From: a virus
DNA length: 21,929 bases
Virus record (IMG/VR): IMGVR_UViG_3300030104_000676
Coordinates: 1 to 21,929 of that record
Strand: one strand, 5' to 3'
How positions within the stretch are numbered: position 1 is the first letter of the stretch; each line of letters starts with the position of its first letter. Position numbers and translations under genes: made by a program. Of this stretch, positions 2,948-21,911 are shown one piece after another. The notes under the pieces were generated by a model. The model was given only the letters and a program-made list of their open reading frames with translations. It made no database searches and was not told the origin of the DNA.

Positions 2948-5893
2948 ATGCTGGTCAGCAAGACTCTTCCCAACCTAATCAATGGGGTCTCTCAACAGCC
3001 TGATGCGCTGCGGATGGACACCCAATGCACGGCGCAGGAGAACGCCTATCCCTCAGTGGTTGAAGGGTTGACGAAGAGACTTCCGACTGAGCACGTAGCA
3101 CAGACGAACTTGGCGGCTGATGCTAAGACGTTCGTTCACACCATCAACAGAGAAGCTCCAGAGCAATACACAGTTATCCTCCGCGATAAACTGATCCGCG
3201 TCTACGACAAAGACGGGGCGCTCAAGACTGTTGAGATGGGCACTGGAACAGGGACCAACAACGCCGACGTTACCTACTTAGACACTGGGAACGCCGATAC
3301 GTCATTGAAGGCGCTGACGATTGCTGATGTGACCTACATCGTCAACACCGAGAAGACCACGGCGATGACGGGGACCACAACGACTTCGGTATCCCCGCAT
3401 GAAGCGTTAATCTTCATCAACCAAGCCTTTGCTAGCTCAAGCTACACGGTAGACATCGAGCAGCCAGGGGCGAGCGGGACCATTAGTTCAACAGAAACCG
3501 CTGGTGAACCTGGCGATGCCGTCACAATCGCTACCAATATAGCGAACGACTTAAACACACTTAGCTCCCCCAGCGCACTACAGCACACATCCCCAACAAC
3601 CAGCGTTTCTAATTTTCAGACTGGAGGGGGCGGCACTGTTAATGTCCAAAACAAGTATGTAGGCCAGTCGTTCACCGCCACGTCTACGGACCCCTTAGTG
3701 TCTTTTACTTGGAAGTCAGACGTAGACCTTTCTGACAAGACGTTTTATTGGTCGCTTCACTCGGCTGATCCAAGCACTGGTGCTCCCACATCTAACTTTG
3801 ACGCTGGAGGCCAACTCACAACCGGAACGTGGCAGACTGGCCCAGTGGCCAACGCTACGCAGCAAGTCAATTTTGGAACCGTTTACCCTACGGGAAACCC
3901 GTTTGTCCCTACTGTTGGGACGCGCTACTGGATTCGGTGCTCATACGCCAATGTAGGACCAAAGCCAGTTCCCCGAGGGTGGCTACACGATACAGCGGGT
4001 TACGCCACTGGAGAGTCCTACTACAACGGGGCGGTTCAATCTGGGGACTTCTGGTTCAAGGTTAACGTGGCTGGAGCTACGTCTGGAGCAATCAATGCAG
4101 AGGCCAGTGGTCCCGTAATCTACGTGTCGTCGAACGAGCCTTTCGACATCAAAGGCACGAACAGTTACACGGACAACTACATTGATGTCTTCAAAGGCTC
4201 CGCTCAGAAGCTTTCTGATCTTCCAGTCCAAGCCAAGGACGGGATGATTATGAAGATCGCAGGGAGCGTGGACGCAGGGGAAGACGACTACTACTTGAAG
4301 TTCGTCTCCAACGCTCAGGGCATCACTGGTGGCGGCAACATTGGCCCTGGTGTTTGGGAAGAGTGCGCGGGGCCAGGGATTGAGGACGGGCTAGAGCCGG
4401 ACGCTTCAACCATGCCTCACTTGCTTATCAAGCAAGCAAACGGGACGTTTGTCTTTAAGCGTGCGGATGGTGAGAACCACACTAGCGGTTCTGATACCTA
4501 CGACTACAGCACGTTTAAGTGGGGGTCGCGACTCGCAGGAGACAAGCTCACAAACCCTGACCCCACGTTCATCGGCAGGACCATCAACAACCTGTTCTTG
4601 TTCAAGAACCGCTTTGGGATCTTGTCTGATGAGAACATCGTGATGAGTGAGGCTGGGGAGTTCTTCAACTTCTTCAGAGCCACCGCGATTGATCTACTGG
4701 ACACAGCGCCGATCGACATTGCTTCTGCAAGCAGTGAAGTGTCCATCTTACGACACGCGGTTCCACTGGCTGAAAAGCTAGTAATCCTCTCGGATGCCGG
4801 TCAGTTCATCCTTCAATCGGATACTGCCTTGTCGTCCAAGACGGTCGCGATGGCCCGTTCAACGGCCTACAACATCCTTAAAGATGCCGAGCCTAGTGCT
4901 TCGGAGAACGCAGTGTTCTTCGCGTTCAACCGTGGCTCCTTCTCTGGCGTTCGCGAATACATCCCTTCGGATGTCGAAGACAACTTTGAAGCCATCGACA
5001 TCAGCGCACAGATCCCCAAATACATCCCAGGGAAGATCACCAAGATCGTCGCGGCTAACCATGAGAACGTAGTGTTCTGCATGACTGAAGGAGACCCCGA
5101 TGCTCTGTATGTCTACAACTACTACAACGGTGATCGGCAGCGCATCCAGAGCGCATGGCACCGCTGGGAGTTTGGGACTGGAGCTAAGATCCTCAACATC
5201 GACCTGATCGACACTGACCTCTACCTGACTGTCTATAGGACTGGCGGGGTGTTCATTGAAAAGATGGCGATTGAGGTCGGCAAGACGGACTCTGGGTCTA
5301 ACTACGTCGCTCGGCTTGACCGAAGGGTATCGAACACAAGCACGGGAGTATCAGTCAACGGGAAGCTGGTCACTTTGCCTTACTCCGTCACCAGCGGAAG
5401 AACCATTGAAGTGATGACAGCAGCCGGTAAACGGCTTCCAGCCGTCCCCGATGGCGGTAGTCAGGTCACGTTTGACGTTGGCGAAGACATGACTGGTGTT
5501 TCGTTCTTTGCAGGCGAACCCTACACGATGTCATACACGTTCTCTGACCTAGTCCTTAGAGAGCAAACCAAAACAGGCGGATTGGCCGTGATGACCGATG
5601 GTCGAATCCAAGTCCGCTACGGCACGATCACGTTCGGCGAAAGCGGTTCGTTCAATGTTGCCGTCACCCCAGACTTCCGAGACACCAGCACTCACACGTT
5701 CACAGGACGAATCTTGGGCGCAGGCTCAATGAAGTTAGGGGAGGTTCCGCTGGAGTCTGGGGAGCTACGTTTCCCTGTCTTCTCTAAGGCAGACCAAGTC
5801 AACATCACTGTCACCAATGACGCTCCGCTTCCCTGTAATCTGCTATCAGCAGAATATGAGATTTCATGGAATCCACGCAGCCGTCGTATGTAG
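2948..5893 (+). CDS. Tail tubular protein B (T7 gp12-like nozzle) with inserted beta-rich module
   Basis: This is the 981-residue homologue of the nozzle protein, which forms the tail tip and carries the DNA channel. Family hallmarks are the N-terminal LINGVSQQPDALR (10-22), SVVEGLTKRLPTEHV (36-50), SDLPVQAKDGM (about 423-433), ASTMPHLLIK (about 487-496), and an NLFLFKNRFGILSDENIVMSE stretch followed by QFILQSDTALS. T7 gp12 is 794 residues, and much of the excess lies at about 215-378, a Ser/Thr/Gly-rich segment starting near VGQSFTATSTDP. It splits the core between DLNTL and GPVIYVSS and resembles two modules of the fibre-type gene at 14822-16390. Ribosome site AGAGG. The last 28 bases overlap the next gene. 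Confidence 0.95.
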   Translation: MLVSKTLPNLINGVSQQPDALRMDTQCTAQENAYPSVVEGLTKRLPTEHVAQTNLAADAKTFVHTINREAPEQYTVILRDKLIRVYDKDGALKTVEMGTGTGTNNADVTYLDTGNADTSLKALTIADVTYIVNTEKTTAMTGTTTTSVSPHEALIFINQAFASSSYTVDIEQPGASGTISSTETAGEPGDAVTIATNIANDLNTLSSPSALQHTSPTTSVSNFQTGGGGTVNVQNKYVGQSFTATSTDPLVSFTWKSDVDLSDKTFYWSLHSADPSTGAPTSNFDAGGQLTTGTWQTGPVANATQQVNFGTVYPTGNPFVPTVGTRYWIRCSYANVGPKPVPRGWLHDTAGYATGESYYNGAVQSGDFWFKVNVAGATSGAINAEASGPVIYVSSNEPFDIKGTNSYTDNYIDVFKGSAQKLSDLPVQAKDGMIMKIAGSVDAGEDDYYLKFVSNAQGITGGGNIGPGVWEECAGPGIEDGLEPDASTMPHLLIKQANGTFVFKRADGENHTSGSDTYDYSTFKWGSRLAGDKLTNPDPTFIGRTINNLFLFKNRFGILSDENIVMSEAGEFFNFFRATAIDLLDTAPIDIASASSEVSILRHAVPLAEKLVILSDAGQFILQSDTALSSKTVAMARSTAYNILKDAEPSASENAVFFAFNRGSFSGVREYIPSDVEDNFEAIDISAQIPKYIPGKITKIVAANHENVVFCMTEGDPDALYVYNYYNGDRQRIQSAWHRWEFGTGAKILNIDLIDTDLYLTVYRTGGVFIEKMAIEVGKTDSGSNYVARLDRRVSNTSTGVSVNGKLVTLPYSVTSGRTIEVMTAAGKRLPAVPDGGSQVTFDVGEDMTGVSFFAGEPYTMSYTFSDLVLREQTKTGGLAVMTDGRIQVRYGTITFGESGSFNVAVTPDFRDTSTHTFTGRILGAGSMKLGEVPLESGELRFPVFSKADQVNITVTNDAPLPCNLLSAEYEISWNPRSRRM
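3590..4081 (+). other. Inserted beta-sandwich-like module inside tail tubular protein B
   Basis: This segment codes for about residues 215-378 of the nozzle protein. It reads QSFTATSTDPLVSFTW..., SADPSTGAPTSN, PTVGTRYWIRC. The order 'QSFT - STDP - strand - G.P - G..YW' is repeated in the 522-aa protein downstream (QSFTVSSTDP, NSGVPSGTL, PTPGTTYWAVF). Such modules resemble the 'choice-of-anchor' beta-sandwich type seen in secreted bacterial proteins. A carbohydrate- or surface-binding role is inferred. Boundaries are approximate. Confidence 0.6.
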
Positions 5894-6348
5894 CGAACCT
5901 TGCAGTCCGTCGATCTACAGAAGCGGACTGTAAGTTCCTATCTAGGCACCTAAGAAAAGCGGACTACAACGAAGTCAAAGCGGTGCTTGGAGAAGTCACG
6001 GCTGACGGCTTGTTGTTCTCCATGCACTGCACGGAGGAACCATACACCATCACAGATGACGGCATTCCTGCTGGCATCTTTGGAGTAGCACCAGTCAGTG
6101 ACGGTGTAGGAGCCGTATGGCTTCTAGGAACTGATGCACTTGTCCATGGCAAGTGGAGGTTCCTTCGGGAGTCTAAAGAGTGGCTAGAGAAGATCTCTGA
6201 GGGATACGACTTACTGTTCAACTTCGTGGATGAGAGAAACAAGCTGCATATCCGATGGATTGAGTGGCTTGGGTTCACCTTCATTCACCGTCATCTCCAC
6301 TACGGGGCTGAAAAGCGCCCGTTCCTAGAGTTCGTGAGGATTGTCTAA
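5866..6348 (+). CDS. Internal virion protein, T7 gp13-like (acetyltransferase-like fold)
   Basis: This 160-residue protein sits directly after the nozzle gene, where T7 has gene 13 (138 aa). The recognisable stretch is residues 69-140: AGIFGVAPVSDGVGAVWLLGTDAL, then a WRFLRESKEWLEKISEGYDLLFNFVDE helix/strand pair, and HIRWIEWLGFTFI. This parallels the T7 sequence (W..S....R....KFRK....YDTLWNYV...HIRFL...GA.F). The whole has the look of a degenerate GNAT fold. T7 gp13 is needed for virion maturation but is a minor component. It overlaps the preceding gene by 28 bases and ends in TAATG with the next. The Shine-Dalgarno is weak (GAG), consistent with translational coupling. Acetyltransferase activity should not be assumed. 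Confidence 0.85.
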   Translation: MESTQPSYVANLAVRRSTEADCKFLSRHLRKADYNEVKAVLGEVTADGLLFSMHCTEEPYTITDDGIPAGIFGVAPVSDGVGAVWLLGTDALVHGKWRFLRESKEWLEKISEGYDLLFNFVDERNKLHIRWIEWLGFTFIHRHLHYGAEKRPFLEFVRIV

Positions 6349-6962
6349 TGTGCGTGATTCAAGCCGGAATGTTGGGCCTGCAAGCTGCGGGAGCCGCTGC
6401 GGCCAACATGGCGTTAGTGACTTTGGCAACGACAGCAGTCTCCTACCAAGGTCAGAAGCAACAAGCTCAAGCCCAGAACGCCATGATGCGGCGACGGCAA
6501 GAGCAAGGCACTAAGCTGGCTGAAGAGAACTTTGCCAACCAGACCGGACAAGCCGCTGCACGGACCATGCAAGAGCGTGAAGCCGCTGCGGATGAGATCC
6601 AAAAGGTCGCCAGTGAAGGCCGAAAAGCTGCTGCTCTAGCCTCACTTTCTGCCAGTGAGCGCGGGGTTACAGGGCAAGGTATCGACCAAATCTACGCTGA
6701 CTTTGAGGCGCAGGAACTCCGATACCAAACTCAGGTCAAGAGATCACTGAGCTTCCGTGAGCAAGCGATCCGAGACAACCTTGAGCAAGCCCGTATGGGC
6801 GCTCAATCCAACATTATGAACCTACAGTTCATGCCAAGAACAGGTCCAAACCTGTTGGCGGGTGCGCTGCAAGTCGCTGGGTCGGCTTACGGTGCTTACA
6901 ACCAATACAGCTTCCAAGGGCCAGACCCTAGGATCACCCCTTCTAACGTAGGAAAGCCCTAA
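6348..6962 (+). CDS. Internal virion protein B (T7 gp14-like ejection protein)
   Basis: At 204 residues it is near T7 gp14 (196). It begins with MCVIQAGMLGLQAAGAAAAN, a short hydrophobic helix that fits gp14's role as the outer-membrane pore of the ejectosome. A long charged helical region (about 40-150) follows, including QGQKQQAQAQNAMMRRRQEQ and the family-typical SERGVTGQGI turn near 101-110 (gp14 relatives carry a similar ..S.RGV.G.S). A Gly/Ala-rich segment closes the protein (LLAGALQVAGSAYGAYNQY). GAGGA precedes the start, which overlaps the previous stop as TAATG. The following gene also starts on this gene's stop. Confidence 0.9.
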   Translation: MCVIQAGMLGLQAAGAAAANMALVTLATTAVSYQGQKQQAQAQNAMMRRRQEQGTKLAEENFANQTGQAAARTMQEREAAADEIQKVASEGRKAAALASLSASERGVTGQGIDQIYADFEAQELRYQTQVKRSLSFREQAIRDNLEQARMGAQSNIMNLQFMPRTGPNLLAGALQVAGSAYGAYNQYSFQGPDPRITPSNVGKP

Positions 6963-9286
6963 TGGTAAGACGAGTAGTTGGAGCTTCTTCCGCACCTACC
7001 CCCGACTTTAGTCCCTATAAGGCTGTAACTCCTGCGGCGGGTATGACGGACTTCTACCGTCAACCAGGGACAATGGCGATCCCTGAGTCTGAGTTCTCTC
7101 AGGTAGCCTCGGCTCTACAGTCAATCAGCCCCACACTCAGTAAAGTCATTGGGGACCAAGCGGAAGCTGCGAACCAAACTGCGGCTGACCAAGGACGTAT
7201 TGATGCTGAGAAGTTGGACGCAGAGCAGGCTAGGGAAGCCATGCGGGGCAACTTCAAGAACCTAGAGAAGAGCGGGAAGATCCCAGTAGGTGCATCGCCG
7301 TTTCGGCTTGCAGCCATGCAGGCGTCGTTGGGTAAGCAGGCGATTCAGAACGACCTTCGCTCGATCCTGAACGAAAACATTGGCCGCTTTACGGACCCGT
7401 ATAGCAAAGAAGACCCCGCCGCGTTTGTCCAAGAGCAGTTTGCCAAGATTGTCGAAGATCGAGGCATGGATTTCTACGCCAAAGGCGCAGCGACGGAAGC
7501 GTTAGATCAGGTCGAAAGCGCGTTCTTGAACAGAGCTTCGTTGATGAAGTCTGAGAACCGTGCGGAGCAAGGCAGGAAAGACCTAACCAGTGATACCTTT
7601 GTCGGGTTGCGCCAGCCCACTCCTCCAGAGGTAAAAAACGCTGCTGAAGCAACTCAGTACTACCGGGGAAACCTCCAGAAGTTAGTGGATGAGTTCTACA
7701 AGACCACAGGCGAGTCGGGCCGCCCGCAAGTTCTGATGGGCCTGAAGGCCGCAGCTAAGTCGTTTGCGGATGCCGGAGATCGAGAGCAAGCGGATGCACT
7801 GATTGATGCCGCTGAAGGCGTCAAGATCGGTGGGCAAAAGCTCGGCGAAAGTGAATCTATTGCTTTTCAAAATCTTCGTGAAGAGGTCCACGACCGCGCA
7901 GATCGGGCGGAAGCCAAGGAAGACACCGACCGAGACCGAGCCATCAAAAACCGCAGCGTCGCAGTAAATAACGAGGCTTCTCGGCTCTACTCCGAATACC
8001 TAGGCATGGGTCCAGATGCCTTCCGAAAGGCCGACTTCGGATCGCGTAAAGACGAACTTAAAAGTCGCTTAATGGACAACGAAAAGTTGGACGAAGATGA
8101 CGCTGAGTTGGCGGTAGCGGAACTGGTGAGGAGATTGGAGTCTCATCAGAGGCAAGAAGAACTGGACCCAGAAACCATGGCTAATGTTCTCAAAGTGATT
8201 AACGACGACAAGGTGCCCTTTGAGACCAAAATGACGATCTTGTCAGAGAACATGGCAGCACTCGGAGAGCAGTTCACCCCGCTCTATAACTCGGTCACTA
8301 CTAAGAACAGCGAAAACAGAGCATTCCAAGCGTTCTACAACGCAACAACTAGCGACCGAAACACCTATATTAACGATGTGGCGGTTCAGGCCGAAAAGGC
8401 GGGGATTACAGGCTCGCGCTTACTTTCCCTCCGAGACGGGATTAGGGCTCGGGTTGAACAGGTTGCCCGTGATGTTTCTGGGATGGAGTTAACTGACGCG
8501 GCTAAAAGAGAGGAGTTCCGAAAGCGAGCCGAGAAGATCCGAGACGAAGCGGTGGAGATTCTTGAAAAGGAAGAAAGGCCCGAAGAGCCATTATCAATTC
8601 CTGCGGATGCTCCGCCGGATGTCCGCGATGCGATGATCCGTGAAAGGATGACGACAGCAGAAGGACAAGAATCTCCGCTTCCGAAAGCGGAGACCTCTTG
8701 GTATGTCGATGATTCTGACGCGACCATCAACATGGAGGTTCTTCAAAATGCTAAGGACTACGGCCCTGAGAGCGTTAAGAAGGCAAAAAGCACCATCTAC
8801 AAAGACAGCCTAGCAGAAGAACAAAAGGCTCTAAAAGGCAAGATTCAGTTTGACCAGATGCTCCGCCGCAACCGGGCTTTCGATGTCTTCGGTATCGCAA
8901 GTTATGACACTGAGTTTCCTTTCACTAAGGAATATTTGCGGTTGCGTAGCGTCACGGGGTTCAGCCTTGAAGAGATCCGCAGCAATGAGGTTCTAAAGAC
9001 AGGAGAGGGGCTAGGCATCACGATCCCTCCAAAAGTGCTTAACCCTAAGCATGTAATGCTGATTAGAAACATGCGATCAGCTAAGGCTTTAGATATTTAC
9101 GCCCAGACTGAGGAAGGCGAGGCAAAGATCATTGAGATTATGAAGTCTCTGCCGAAAGACTATCGATTTATCCCTAAAGACCACACAGGGCCGCTCACAG
9201 GCCAGCTTCAAGACGCATTCAATAAGTTTGTTGAGCAGCAAATAGAAATCCTGGAGCGATACCGCCCTACTCAGGAGGCTAAATAA
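6962..9286 (+). CDS. Internal virion protein C (T7 gp15-like ejection protein)
   Basis: The 774-residue protein matches T7 gp15 (747) in length, position and composition: almost entirely helical, highly charged, with no membrane segment. The N-terminus (FSPYKAVTPAAGMTDFYRQPG, then SALQSISPTLSKVIGDQAEAAN) looks like the entry of gp15-type proteins. A conserved-looking ...MQASLGKQAIQNDLRSILNENIGRFTDPYSKEDPAAFVQEQF region lies near 119-162. In T7, gp15 and gp16 form the periplasmic tube and DNA-translocating motor after ejection. AGGAAAG precedes the start, which overlaps the gp14-like stop as TAATG. No catalytic motif was found. Confidence 0.87.
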   Translation: MVRRVVGASSAPTPDFSPYKAVTPAAGMTDFYRQPGTMAIPESEFSQVASALQSISPTLSKVIGDQAEAANQTAADQGRIDAEKLDAEQAREAMRGNFKNLEKSGKIPVGASPFRLAAMQASLGKQAIQNDLRSILNENIGRFTDPYSKEDPAAFVQEQFAKIVEDRGMDFYAKGAATEALDQVESAFLNRASLMKSENRAEQGRKDLTSDTFVGLRQPTPPEVKNAAEATQYYRGNLQKLVDEFYKTTGESGRPQVLMGLKAAAKSFADAGDREQADALIDAAEGVKIGGQKLGESESIAFQNLREEVHDRADRAEAKEDTDRDRAIKNRSVAVNNEASRLYSEYLGMGPDAFRKADFGSRKDELKSRLMDNEKLDEDDAELAVAELVRRLESHQRQEELDPETMANVLKVINDDKVPFETKMTILSENMAALGEQFTPLYNSVTTKNSENRAFQAFYNATTSDRNTYINDVAVQAEKAGITGSRLLSLRDGIRARVEQVARDVSGMELTDAAKREEFRKRAEKIRDEAVEILEKEERPEEPLSIPADAPPDVRDAMIRERMTTAEGQESPLPKAETSWYVDDSDATINMEVLQNAKDYGPESVKKAKSTIYKDSLAEEQKALKGKIQFDQMLRRNRAFDVFGIASYDTEFPFTKEYLRLRSVTGFSLEEIRSNEVLKTGEGLGITIPPKVLNPKHVMLIRNMRSAKALDIYAQTEEGEAKIIEIMKSLPKDYRFIPKDHTGPLTGQLQDAFNKFVEQQIEILERYRPTQEAK

Positions 9287-18410: not shown

Positions 18411-18688
18411 GTGACATGACCCCTGACGTTGCAGCCTTAGCAGACAAGCTCAAGGCTTCTGTTACTGATCCCACCAAGCAAGCGATGCTTGAAGCAATGG
18501 CTGCTGATGCCAGTCGAGTTGCCATGTTGGCGATGACTGATCCTGCTGCGGCTGAAGCTGAAGTTGCGATCATCAAGGCGACCATGGCCAACATTGGTCA
18601 AGCTGAAGCTGCTAACGCCGTTAAAGCCGTCACTGATTGGGTGGCTGACACGGTTGGTCGAGTGATGAGCAAGGCTCTTCCGGTCTGA
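18407..18688 (+). CDS. Small Ala-rich helical protein, unknown
   Basis: A 93-residue protein, almost all helix and rich in Ala/Met/Asp (LEAMAADASRVAMLAMTDPAAAEAEVAIIKATMANIGQAEAANAVKAV). There is no signal peptide or clear membrane segment. The start GTG at 18407 overlaps the lipoprotein stop as GTGA and has GGAGG ten bases upstream. An in-frame ATG at 18416 is the alternative and would be 19 bases from that site. Its stop overlaps the large terminase ATG as TGATG, so it is translated in the packaging/lysis operon. No family recognised. Confidence 0.65.
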   Translation: MSDMTPDVAALADKLKASVTDPTKQAMLEAMAADASRVAMLAMTDPAAAEAEVAIIKATMANIGQAEAANAVKAVTDWVADTVGRVMSKALPV

Positions 18689-20352
18689 TGACGGACCCAC
18701 GGCTCAAGGATTTCCGAAACTTCCTGTTCTTATGCTGGGAGCACCTCGGACTTCCTGAGCCGACCCCGGTCCAATACGACATCGCGGAATACATCCAGAA
18801 CGGTCCAAAGCGCCGTTGCGTGATGGCGTTTCGTGGTGTCGGTAAAAGCTGGATCACTTCAGCTTTCGTTGTCCACCAACTGCTACTAGATCCCACCAAG
18901 AACATTCTGGTGGTGTCTGCATCCAAGCAGCGAGCGGATGACTTCTCTACGTTCACGCTGCGGCTGATTGATGAGATGCCCTTGCTGCAACATCTCAAGC
19001 CGCATGAGAACCAAAGAAACTCAAAGATCGCCTTTGACGTAGGGCCAGCCCCGGCTGCCCATGCTCCGTCCGTGACTTCCAAGGGGCTGACCTCCCAAAT
19101 TACTGGTAGTCGAGCAGACATCATCATCGCAGACGATGCAGAGTCCTTGACCAACTCTGCTACTCAGATGATGCGCGACAAGATGTCGGAGCAAGTCAAG
19201 GAGTTCGATGCTGTGCTGAAGCCTGGGGGTGCAATTCTCTACTTGGGAACCCCCCAGACTGAAGCCAGTATCTACAACCAGTTACCAGAGCGGGGCTATG
19301 ACATCCGCATCTGGCCAGCAAGGATGCCCACGGAAAAGCAGCGACTCGGCTACGGCAAACGCCTAGCCCCGATGATCGTTGATATGGAGCTAGAGGAGGG
19401 CGACCCAGTCGATCCAAAGCGGTTCAACACATATGACCTGCTAGAACGAGAAGCCAGCTACGGAAAGTCTGGGTTCGCTCTCCAATTCATGCTGGATACG
19501 TCACTGTCTGACGTAGACCGATACCCACTCAAGCTCTCAGACCTCGTAATTATGAGGCTCGACCGAGAGCAAGCCCCAGAGAAGATCCTGTGGGCTGGGT
19601 CTCCAGAGTATGCCTACAAAGACCTCCCCTGCGTAGGGATGGCTGGAGACCGCTACTACATGCCCATGGGCGTCTCTGGTGAGTTTATGAACTACCAGGG
19701 GTCAGTCCTAGCCATTGACCCGTCAGGTCGAGGTAAGGATGAGACGGCCTACGCAGTGGTGAAGATGTTGAACTCACAACTCTTCGTCACCGCAGCCGGT
19801 GGACTACCTGGGGGATACGACGATGACACCTTGAAGTCTCTGGCGATGATTGCCAAGGACCACAACGTCAATGAAGTCATCATCGAGTCCAACTTCGGTG
19901 ACGGGATGTTCACCGCGCTGTTCCAACCAGTGTTGGCAAAGATCCACAAGGTCACCATCAACGAAGTCCGTCACTCCGTCCAAAAGGAGAAGCGGATCTT
20001 GGATGTCCTTGAGCCAGTGATGAACCGTCACAAGCTGATCGTGGATGAGTCGGTGATCCAGTCGGACTACAACTCGACCCAACACCTACCAGCAGACAAA
20101 TCTCTCAAGTATCAGTTGTTCTACCAGATGACACGACTGACCAGAGACAGAGGATCACTGGCCCATGATGACCGTCTGGATGTCCTGGCTATCGCGGTCA
20201 ACTACTGGACTGAACAGATGTCCAGAGATGTTGACGAAGCCGTGGACTACCACAAGAACGAGAAACTGAGACGGGATCTGGAGAGCTTTACAGAACACGT
20301 CCTAGGACACCAAGGAGACCGGGGGGACTCATGGATAAATACGATGAACTGA
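18688..20352 (+). CDS. Terminase large subunit (T7 gp19-like packaging motor)
   Basis: At 554 residues it is close to T7 gp19 (586). ATPase motifs are visible: Walker A FRGVGKSW (48-55), Walker B DIIIADDAE (144-152), and coupling motif LYLGTPQ (184-190). The nuclease domain has the RNase H-like acidic residues in LAIDPSGRGKDETAYAVV (Asp344, Glu352), VIIESNFGDGM (Glu400) and AHDDRLDVLAIA (Asp493, Asp494 and Asp497). It pumps DNA into the procapsid and cuts the concatemer. The ATG overlaps the upstream stop (TGATG). The gene's last 22 bases overlap a 55-aa gene in another frame. Confidence 0.98.
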   Translation: MTDPRLKDFRNFLFLCWEHLGLPEPTPVQYDIAEYIQNGPKRRCVMAFRGVGKSWITSAFVVHQLLLDPTKNILVVSASKQRADDFSTFTLRLIDEMPLLQHLKPHENQRNSKIAFDVGPAPAAHAPSVTSKGLTSQITGSRADIIIADDAESLTNSATQMMRDKMSEQVKEFDAVLKPGGAILYLGTPQTEASIYNQLPERGYDIRIWPARMPTEKQRLGYGKRLAPMIVDMELEEGDPVDPKRFNTYDLLEREASYGKSGFALQFMLDTSLSDVDRYPLKLSDLVIMRLDREQAPEKILWAGSPEYAYKDLPCVGMAGDRYYMPMGVSGEFMNYQGSVLAIDPSGRGKDETAYAVVKMLNSQLFVTAAGGLPGGYDDDTLKSLAMIAKDHNVNEVIIESNFGDGMFTALFQPVLAKIHKVTINEVRHSVQKEKRILDVLEPVMNRHKLIVDESVIQSDYNSTQHLPADKSLKYQLFYQMTRLTRDRGSLAHDDRLDVLAIAVNYWTEQMSRDVDEAVDYHKNEKLRRDLESFTEHVLGHQGDRGDSWINTMN

Positions 20353-20498
20353 AGAGAGCGACAGACCGACTGGTAGACACCTACGATGACTACCTGAACC
20401 AAGAAGTAGTCCCTGAACTACTGACTCAACGGTTGATGGAAGTCACCAAGCTGGTGGACCACCTAGTAGGCCCTGAGAAGGCTGAAGATCCTCTCTAA
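20331..20498 (+). CDS. Short gene overlapping the end of the large terminase gene
   Basis: A 55-residue frame starting inside the terminase gene (22-base overlap). The purine-rich AAGGAGACCGGGGGG stretch directly upstream supplies a ribosome site. The product is acidic and helical: MDKYDELKRATDRLVDTYDDYLNQEVVPELLTQRLMEVTKLVDHLVGPEKAEDPL. Regular leucine/valine spacing suggests a small helical bundle. T7 has short gene 19.5 after the large terminase, so position is comparable, but no sequence relation is claimed. Confidence 0.65.
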   Translation: MDKYDELKRATDRLVDTYDDYLNQEVVPELLTQRLMEVTKLVDHLVGPEKAEDPL

Positions 20499-20501
20499 GC
20501 C

Positions 20502-20546
20502 ACGATCTTCACTGGAAGGTATCAACCCACCAGTAAAGAAGATCGT
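20502..20546 (+). terminator. Strong hairpin just after the terminase operon
   Basis: A perfect 9-bp outer stem (20502-20510 with 20538-20546) continues as a 5-bp stem (20511-20515 with 20530-20534, three A bulged) and a 3-bp tip (20518-20520 with 20525-20527, loop ATCA). It begins four bases after the last stop codon. No T run follows, so an RNase III processing or mRNA-end-protecting role is as likely as termination. Confidence 0.6.
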
Positions 20547-20593
20547 AGATCCTAGAGACCACTACAGCCCTCAGAGATAGGAACGACTCTTTG

Positions 20594-20609
20594 AGAAGCC
20601 CAGGCTTCT
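20594..20609 (+). terminator. Short hairpin, possible terminator
   Basis: A 6-bp stem, AGAAGC with GCTTCT, closes on CCAG. It is followed by TTGGGG, not a T tract. It lies between the hairpin at 20502-20546 and the large stem at 20646-20757. Termination is only a possibility. Confidence 0.35.
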
Positions 20610-20645
20610 TGGGGTCGAAGAGCACTCAGGACTCAGGAAAATACC

Positions 20646-20757
20646 TTTCCAGATTCTAGTAGCGGAGATCTCCCTTACCTTTAGATCCAGACTTTTGCAT
20701 CCTTGGCTGGGTTGTGGGGGGTAAGGGGGGTCTTCTGCTACACTAGGATCTAGGAAA
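20646..20757 (+). ncRNA. Large imperfect stem-loop, candidate structured RNA
   Basis: Positions 20646-20679 pair with 20720-20757 in about 34 base pairs, four of them G-U, interrupted only by single-sided bulges at 20736, 20741-20742 and 20752. The 40-nt loop contains a further stem (20684-20690 with 20707-20713). The G-U pairs mean RNA pairing is better than DNA palindromy. It lies in a gene-free stretch between the packaging genes and the promoter-like boxes. Whether it is a separate transcript, an RNase III site, a terminator or a packaging signal cannot be decided from one sequence. Confidence 0.6.
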
Positions 20758-20779
20758 ATCACCATAAGTATCTATTAGT

Positions 20780-20820
20780 AATACTCTTAAGTAGTATTCT
20801 TATTAGTTATTCTTATTAGT
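20780..20820 (+). repeat. AT-rich segment with inverted repeat and 13-bp tandem repeat
   Basis: AATACT at 20780-20785 is inverted as AGTATT at 20793-20798 around CTTAAG. Two perfect tandem copies of TATTCTTATTAGT follow at 20795-20807 and 20808-20820. The segment is much more AT-rich than the rest of the window and lies just upstream of the paired CTATAG boxes. It may ease strand opening or hold a host-type promoter; TATATT at 20830-20835 resembles a -10 box without a clear -35. Confidence 0.55.
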
Positions 20821-20837
20821 ACTCCTTCTTATATTCC

Positions 20838-20869
20838 CATCTATAGACATCCTAAGTCATCTATAGACA
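20838..20869 (+). promoter_or_regulatory. Tandem CATCTATAGACA boxes, candidate phage RNA polymerase promoters
   Basis: CATCTATAGACA occurs at 20838-20849 and again at 20858-20869, exactly 20 bp apart and 15 bp before the HNH gene start. The CTATAG core is shared by promoters of single-subunit phage polymerases (T7 CACTATAGGG, SP6 CACTATAGAAG). The phage polymerase gene is not in the window, so recognition cannot be tested directly. A repressor or regulator site is the alternative. Confidence 0.5.
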
Positions 20870-20883
20870 GCTAAAGAGAGACC

Positions 20884-21111
20884 ATGGCCAAACCTAGAGA
20901 CTACAAGAAGGAATACAGGGACTACCACAGCAAGCCCAAGGCTAGAAGAATTAACAACCTAGTCCGTAAAGCACGTAGGAAGGTTGGTCTTAAAGAAGGA
21001 GATCCAAGAGAAGTGGATCACAAAAAAGCCCTGTCCAAAGGAGGCTCCAACGGCCTGGACAACCTCCGTATCGTCTCTCGAAAGACGAATCGGAAGAAGG
21101 GCAATAAGTGA
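20884..21111 (+). CDS. Small HNH endonuclease
   Basis: A 75-residue, very basic protein. The C-terminal half carries the HNH core: VDHKKALSKGGSNGLDNLRIVSRKTNRKKG (44-73), with Asp45-His46 as the first motif half, Asn60-Leu61 in the middle and Asn69 as the last position. The basic N-terminus (KPRDYKKEYRDYHSKPKARRINNLVRKARRK) would contact DNA. Small HNH proteins next to terminase genes occur widely in phages and in several systems assist packaging; free-standing homing is the other option. GAGAG lies a few bases before the ATG. The stop overlaps the next ATG as TGATG. Confidence 0.88.
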   Translation: MAKPRDYKKEYRDYHSKPKARRINNLVRKARRKVGLKEGDPREVDHKKALSKGGSNGLDNLRIVSRKTNRKKGNK

Positions 21112-21410
21112 TGAAACTGGTCCTGGTCCACTGGATCGACATCATCGGTGATGACCACAATCCTTGGAGCAGTCTGGAACAGGCCAAGGAGATGAAGCCT
21201 GAACCTATAGCCACCATCGGGAAGGTGGTGGAAGACAATGACCAACACATGGTCGTAGCCTCAAGCTGGAACGAAAACGGTGGACTGCTAGGGAACCTGA
21301 ACTGTATCCCGAAGGGAGTGGTTCAGAGCGTTGTAGAAGTAGAGCTTGAGGATGTTGAGGATGTTGAGGATGTTGAGGATGTTGAAGAAGGCTGGGGAAG
21401 TTTTGGCTGA
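21111..21410 (+). CDS. Small conserved-type phage protein with acidic repeat tail
   Basis: A 99-residue protein. The N-terminal 78 residues (KLVLVHWIDIIGDDHNPWSSLEQAKEMKPEPIATIGKVVEDNDQHMVVASSWN..., then IPKGVVQSVVEVE) have the shape of a small phage protein family with pattern V.W.D.....W....E......P..I.T.G.V..D, IPKG; no function is known to me. The tail is (EDV)x4 then EEGWGSFG, encoded by four exact 9-bp repeats. The ATG at 21111 is used, overlapping the HNH stop (TGATG); a GTG one codon earlier is also in frame. It is the last gene before the repeat-rich terminal region. Confidence 0.75.
   Translation: MKLVLVHWIDIIGDDHNPWSSLEQAKEMKPEPIATIGKVVEDNDQHMVVASSWNENGGLLGNLNCIPKGVVQSVVEVELEDVEDVEDVEDVEEGWGSFG
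21348..21383 (+). repeat. Four exact 9-bp tandem repeats (GAGGATGTT)
   Basis: Units start at 21348, 21357, 21366 and 21375 and are identical in sequence, encoding EDV each time. Identity without synonymous drift points to recent slippage expansion. Copy number changes keep the frame and lengthen the acidic tail. Confidence 0.9.
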
Positions 21411-21456
21411 AAAATCTGACAGGGTTACGTATAGTGACTCAGCTGATTTACCCCCT

Positions 21457-21911
21457 ATACGGTCCTACCGTATTCGATTGCGCTATGCCGTATCCGGCCT
21501 GGTCGTATTCGGTTAGACCGTATTCTCATTCTTGAGACCCATTTCCGAGATTCGAGACGCTACGATTACGCCGGATCAGATACGGTCGTATTCGGTTTGG
21601 CCGTATCTATGCAGCCAAGCCACACTGAGCGCCACCGATCACGGCCAAGCCCTAGAACTATGCGGCTACCGGTAGACTGTTTATCTACTGCGGTCAAAGG
21701 CCTAGCCAACTACGGCATCATCGTATTCGGTTAGACCGTAACACTATGCAATGATGCGTTCGGTCCTGTCGTATTCGGTTAGACCGTAACTATGCATCCG
21801 GTCCTGTCGTATCCGGTTAGACCGTAATCACTTACATTTGCCCGTCAATATTTTGTCGGGCAATTCTAAGATTCCGACAACCCCACTGAGCACGAGCGTT
21901 CGGTTTCACCG
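21457..21911. repeat. Seven CGGT-N3-ACCG palindromes with flanking consensus
   Basis: The 11-bp palindrome occurs at 21460-21470, 21510-21520, 21593-21603 (one arm GCCG), 21728-21738, 21776-21786, 21814-21824 and 21901-21911. Five copies share a wider unit (CGTATTCGGTTAGACCGTA and close variants). The first is a 7-bp-arm palindrome, ATACGGTCCTACCGTAT (21457-21473). The third sits inside longer arms, GATACGG at 21579-21585 and CCGTATC at 21601-21607. Two 38-bp direct repeats (21761-21798, 21799-21836) contain copies five and six. Dyad symmetry suggests binding sites for a dimeric protein or conserved RNA hairpins. Confidence 0.85.
21838..21863 (+). terminator. Hairpin near the right end
   Basis: TTGCCCG (21838-21844) pairs perfectly with CGGGCAA (21857-21863). 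The inner bases add C-G, A-T and A-T pairs after one T-T mismatch, around an AT-rich loop. TTCT follows. It is the most terminator-like structure of the terminal region and could stop transcription before the genome end. Confidence 0.5.

Follow-up and report, generated by a model that had tools for sequence, protein, structure and literature searches.

A conserved two-module hairpin element behind terL in a clade of marine T7-like phages

What is a long, stable hairpin doing just behind the packaging genes of a phage, and does it act as RNA or as DNA? The question is raised by the window (the whole 21,929-nt stretch of DNA analysed here), the late half of a T7-like phage with scaffold, capsid and a T7-type large terminase subunit (TerL). 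The initial annotation had reported a stem of about 34 bp at 20646-20757, with one-sided bulges, an apical sub-stem and four G-U pairs, and had listed a non-coding RNA, an RNase III site, a terminator and a packaging signal as possible functions.

A hairpin that is part of a larger element

Folding 20646-20757 as + strand RNA confirmed the hairpin, with a main stem of 36 pairs (20647-20682 with 20717-20756), three one-sided bulges (at 20752, 20740-20741 and 20733) and the apical sub-stem. Including this second stem in the loop, the fold comprises 45 pairs and reaches -59.8 kcal/mol; G-U pairs had been undercounted, as there are 7 in the main stem and 10 overall. Chance formation is unlikely, as had been supposed: the + strand of 20636-20767 folded at -60.9 compared with -38.2 +/- 3.87 for shuffled sequences (z -5.87), none of 200 shuffles being as stable, and the - strand was unremarkable (z -1.64, 18/200). 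For the wider stretch 20582-20770, + strand z-scores were -4.87 with RNA parameters (0/200 shuffles) and -2.78 with DNA parameters (2/200), and the - strand RNA fold gave -0.46 (67/200).

Aligning the flanks of this hairpin across relatives brought out a second, smaller hairpin upstream (P1) and two direct repeats. The fold at 20646-20757 is real, but it is only the central part of an element spanning about 20582-20763, downstream of terL and ahead of the predicted terminal repeat (Table 1). The element consists of two tandem modules, P1 with its tail R1 and the long G-hairpin with its tail R2, both following one layout: a hairpin with G's at its end, G(G)YC (in most subgroups), a spacer, GACTC in R1 or GATCT in R2, and an end word. 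Across relatives the 3' arm of the long hairpin reads G6-TAA/TA/TTT-G6.

Table 1. Positions of the element, its parts and neighbouring features in the window
Feature	Position	Strand	Basis or content
P1 hairpin, module 1	20584..20617	+	fold, 22 distinct stems in 35 loci, covariation
P1 lower stem	20584-20590/20611-20617	+	
P1 upper stem	20593-20599/20604-20610	+	
Tail R1	20611..20645	+	GGGGTC ... GACTC (20630-20634) and word AGGAAAAT (20635-20642)
Segment A	20646..20659	+	outer part of the rod, pairs with R2; weaker hairpin with R1
G-hairpin core, module 2	20665..20735	+	3' arm GGGGGG-TAA-GGGGGG at 20716-20730
Tail R2	20727..20763	+	GGGGTC ... GATCT (20747-20751) and word AGGAAAAT (20752-20759)
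Whole element by covariance model	20582..20760	+	E 2.7e-8; no training rows from the window's subgroup
terL, T7-type terminase large subunit, upstream neighbour	18688..20352	+	Pfam PF22530 5.4e-42; PHROG 38 2.2e-114
Small HNH protein gene (75 aa), directly 3' of the element in part of the clade	20884..21111	+	PF01844 1.5e-5
A5TCTGA...C5 element, matches T7 concatemer junction	21410..21455	+	predicted terminal repeat start ~21427

The terminal repeat boundary in the window is inferred from T7, where AAAAATCTGA (A5TCTGA) starts at 39761, 17 nt before the terminal repeat at 39778, and CCCCC lies downstream. The window has both a T7-type TerL and this junction sequence, from which the repeat is expected to start near the position given in Table 1, placing the element in the interval where T7 has phiOR. 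An A3+TCTGA..C5 combination follows terL in 39 of the 70 loci whose DNA continues for 700 nt or more beyond that gene (25/45 with the G motif described below, 14/25 without) and occurs nowhere in 310,379 upstream bases. As an observation in its own right, AAAAATCTGA...CCCCC, found in the window, in L018 from 6273 and in 37 other loci, may mark the start of the terminal repeat in T7-like phages generally, and would allow the repeat to be placed in many metagenomic genomes of this kind. Contig ends were uninformative as a guide to genome ends, several contigs overlapping at their ends in the manner of circular assemblies.

The hairpin is followed by the genes of the 75-aa HNH protein and of a second protein of 100 aa, beyond which lies an extended, repeat-bearing non-coding stretch. 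A nine-base tandem repeat, TTGAGGATG (21346-21390), lies inside the 100-aa gene and encodes a VED-rich tail, and phage-specific palindromic repeats in non-coding DNA at 21488-21827 (e.g. TCGTATTCGGTTAGACCGTA) are possibly operators, as are other non-coding palindromes in G004 (3680-7280) and G003 (14333-37150). An HNH relative is found upstream, not downstream, of terL in L049, L050, L051, L052 and L056.

Paired changes and matched tails among relatives

Scanning viral contigs for TerL yielded 80 loci, 48 of which carry a G5-8/N2-4/G5-8 motif within 900 nt after terL; among the 32 without it, L009 and L032 have less than 30 nt of DNA after terL and L069 has 136. Throughout L001-L038, L012 excepted, the motif supplies the 3' arm of a strong hairpin on the + strand in every locus whose DNA covers the region, and in L040-L048 the stems are weaker. 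Stems among relatives are near-perfect and run from about 19 to 36 bp.

A covariance model (named R1, with no relation to tail R1) was built from 19 rows, none from the window's subgroup, and + strand matches with E below 0.01 were accepted. It matched 19/74 sources in a first set, including the window, all of L001-L008 (L008 at 0.0043) and L011, then 13/44 in a second and 4/79 in a third. Some matches are near copies of training rows, which is not so for the window, L001-L008, L011, L180, L197, L210 and L237. The element occurs once per complete contig (3/3 searched) and lies 3' of terL wherever a window-type TerL is present on the same stretch. L197, L210 (E 0.008) and L237, which came from a scan for the G motif, carry the element by the model, each behind a TerL, with the same repeats and the same CTC/TCT difference. 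At E up to 5, + strand matches were absent from all of L039-L080, and no match was found in the DNA searched from eight named phages, CRP-361, MedDCM S45-C18, MedDCM S42-C7, HTVC019P, LUZ100, RHEph01, CRP-125 and HTVC109P.

Several other hits were set aside. Matches on the - strand in L006 (E 0.006) and in L076, L078 and L071 (E 0.04-0.1) were taken as chance or as a palindrome read backwards. As a lone marker, TGGGGGGTAAGGGGGGNCT matched 48 contigs, only 19 with a window-type TerL, and in contigs lacking one it fell within an open frame of 80 aa or more in 11 of the 19 inspected; GGGGGGTTTGGGGGG gave at least 120 matches, and among the matches listed the model found the element in only 3 of 76 newly listed loci.

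L180 (PBMS01000033.1), a close relative (TerL 92%), sits in a contig assigned to a marine Euryarchaeota MAG; an error of binning seems likelier than an archaeal host. Outside the clade, GGGGGGTAAGGGGGG occurs near terminase genes, on the opposite strand, in L121, L124 and L142 (checked) and L140 (by similarity); in L121, L124 and L140 the partner arm is U-rich and the hairpin largely G-U. Similar contigs with one conserved GGGGGGTAAGGGGGG hairpin are L106, L107, L114, L116, L129, L130, L134, L135, L137, L141, L143, L145, L146 and L149. Only the G-arm part of this set fits the covariance model, weakly where at all, and our guess, from contig size, is that these are perhaps filamentous phages.

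Checking the relatives for compensating changes did reveal paired changes. In alignment A2 (19 rows, covering P1 and the lower G-stem) 93.0% of cells are paired, and 34 cells have changed on both sides, compared with 11.0 +/- 2.9 in shuffled alignments (0/500 reaching this value) and 1-13 in slid versions. These figures include L018 and L019, which are one column off in the 5' arm and count against the structure. Seven pairs show both-side change, a number less striking on its own (reached by 44/500 shuffles). P1 provides a second line of evidence, with 22 distinct stems in 35 loci (leaving out L126, whose anchor was mis-set, and L010 and L040, without an anchor). Each locus was folded to define P1, which sets own pairing at 1.00 by construction; the swapped pairing of 0.47 is thus the informative part, and A2 serves as an independent check.

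The G tracts of the long hairpin allow RNA pairing to be weighed against DNA pairing. Among 38 distinct hairpins (leaving out L046, L048, L072, L073, L077 and L079, whose stems are weak or unlike the rest), the bases opposite the tracts are 308 C, 125 U and 30 unpaired. The linkers are TAA in 14, TTT in 12, TA in 11 and TT in 1, and linker and 5'-arm partner change together. In A2, columns 90-94, 98 and 100-103, where the 5' arm faces fixed G's, hold 112 C-G, 55 U-G and 4 other combinations. That the 5' arm is nearly all C or U here points to RNA pairing, since selection on the G tract alone would also admit A and G opposite it, and DNA pairing would avoid T. The pattern favours + strand RNA over DNA pairing, with single-stranded DNA still a possible carrier. 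Comparison of relatives shows, at the level of sequence, that the predicted fold is kept by paired + strand changes and that module 2 keeps a fixed pair of G tracts as its 3' arm; to the extent of a conserved RNA fold, the idea of a phage non-coding RNA gains support.

The same comparison shows that R1 and R2 keep like end words within a phage, together with their position 3' of terL. The word differs between phages (for example AGGAAAAT in the window, AAGGAAAG in L018, AGAATGAA in L033, AAAGTGAA in L038), GACTC and GATCT stay distinct, and in the loci checked the word occurs in this context in R1 and R2 only. This match was judged by eye, L010 being doubtful. In a permutation test over 15 distinct combinations, tails of one phage differed at 0.73 of 6 positions and crossed tails at 3.18, with 0/10000 permutations as low; the count includes automatic word picks that were wrong (L019, L104) or uncertain (L010) and leaves out L103 (no R2 word) and L040 (no word). 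A rule-free test of the best 18-nt match pointed in the same direction, more weakly (own 13.23, swapped 11.88, shuffled 11.41), the own match equalling or exceeding every partner's in 14/30.

Possible roles of the element

Our tentative reading is that the late transcript carries the element as a structured RNA acting in cis, that a phage factor binds it, and that it works at the right end of the genome close to packaging; we rate this as possible rather than probable. A single phage factor would bind both tails, and such binding would require the tails to stay alike. In several subgroups segment A could pair with either R1 or R2; once R2 is transcribed, A may change partner, extending the rod and exposing R1. 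As the R1:A hairpin alone is weak in the window (-6.9 kcal/mol), pairing of A with R2, which closes the rod, should prevail as soon as R2 has been transcribed. Partner exchange would not be general, because segment A is not complementary to the end word in the TTT subgroup. As the least certain step, the bound RNA might mark or hold late transcription at the right end (the phiOR interval) for concatemer processing and packaging. At the T7 right end, late transcription, replication and packaging are coupled, and all ten contigs searched encode a single-subunit RNA polymerase. If a phage factor does recognise the RNA, the matched tails would be natural specificity pairs for finding it.

The strongest rival among a DNA site, an RNase III site, a terminator and a promoter leader is a DNA site for packaging or replication, in which R1 and R2 would bind terminase or a replication protein and the hairpin would form in one DNA strand, as has been proposed for the T7 concatemer junction. 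The location, with terL on one side and the predicted terminal repeat on the other, is compatible with a packaging signal, and direct repeats of one word, in some cases with GACTC or GATCT present twice at a distance of 9-10 nt, along with G tracts fixed in sequence, could also be DNA sites. However, 29% of the G-tract pairs formed are G-U (125/433), which is costly in DNA, and folding with DNA parameters is less distinct from shuffles than folding with RNA parameters (z -2.78 versus -4.87). Moreover, a clearly similar small terminase is limited to the window and L001-L003 (plus duplicate copies of two of these), whereas AGGAAAAT is also found in L004, L005, L007 and L011. We consider a DNA site somewhat unlikely.

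Unlikely, too, is a site of RNase III-type processing and 3' stabilisation, at which terL mRNA would be split from the right-end genes: long near-perfect stems between genes transcribed in the same direction suit it, but a host nuclease leaves the conserved G tracts and co-changing end words unexplained. We think it improbable that a phiOR-like phage promoter lies at the start of the element, making the hairpins a transcript leader. GGTGACT/CGACTC boxes just 5' of P1, which we take to resemble the SP6/T7 promoter consensus, and the position of T7 phiOR about 100 nt after gene 19 speak for this idea; yet the spacing from box to P1 varies, syntenic low-mismatch matches are coding sequence, and in the window the box doubles as the 5' side of the lower stem of P1. 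The box has no repeat or second promoter-like copy in the window, and no promoter family was recognised in three contigs. The suggestion of a strong terminator (of host or phage polymerase) found least support and is very improbable: despite a highly stable hairpin on the + strand where the late genes end, and the annotated terminators after terL in Pseudomonas phage LUZ100, the + strand has no terminator-like site, none of 38 distinct hairpins is followed by a T tract, and further genes of like orientation come directly afterwards.

Comparison with known systems

The structured RNA that we favour, covariation-supported and found in marine T7-like phages, is unlike any RNA family in the library searched. 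Rfam 15 gave no match in the window, nor was a tRNA found, and in a permissive search of 20353-20890 the best of four hits was the microRNA model MIR5649 (22.4 bits; cut-off 100). A search of open-licence literature turned up no published description of the element, an absence that carries little weight. A phage RNA with a defined fold and a link to packaging is the pRNA of phi29; the element differs from it in having no Rfam match. On the boldest view, the two-module RNA beside terL might itself serve genome packaging in this clade, its matched tails binding a terminase or procapsid component and an exchange of pairing between the near-identical tails switching it between two states. Packaging RNAs would then not be confined to the phi29 group, which we regard as a long shot. 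The lambda nut and HK022 put sites are phage RNA hairpins with linear boxes, present in two copies, that act on host polymerase in early operons; the element differs in its late position and in the presence of a phage polymerase.

Herpesvirus pac1 has a short A/T-rich core between C tracts, and the distance from it to the cleavage site is about 32 bp (PMC10763189). G6-TTT-G6 read on the other strand looks alike, a likeness only. Here the predicted genome end, inferred from T7, is about 700 nt away rather than about 32 bp, so that the element does not lie at the roughly 30 bp from a cleavage site that typifies pac1, and pac1 has no counterpart of the pairing arms and matched tails. The closest setting is that of T7 itself. 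Its right end showed no + strand match to the covariance model in 37300-39937 at E up to 5 and no counterpart of the tandem modules, yet the stretch from gene 19 to the terminal repeat, with phiOR, gene 19.5 and the concatemer junction, occupies the same place as the element, and T7 and these phages alike have A5TCTGA before the terminal repeat and C5 downstream.
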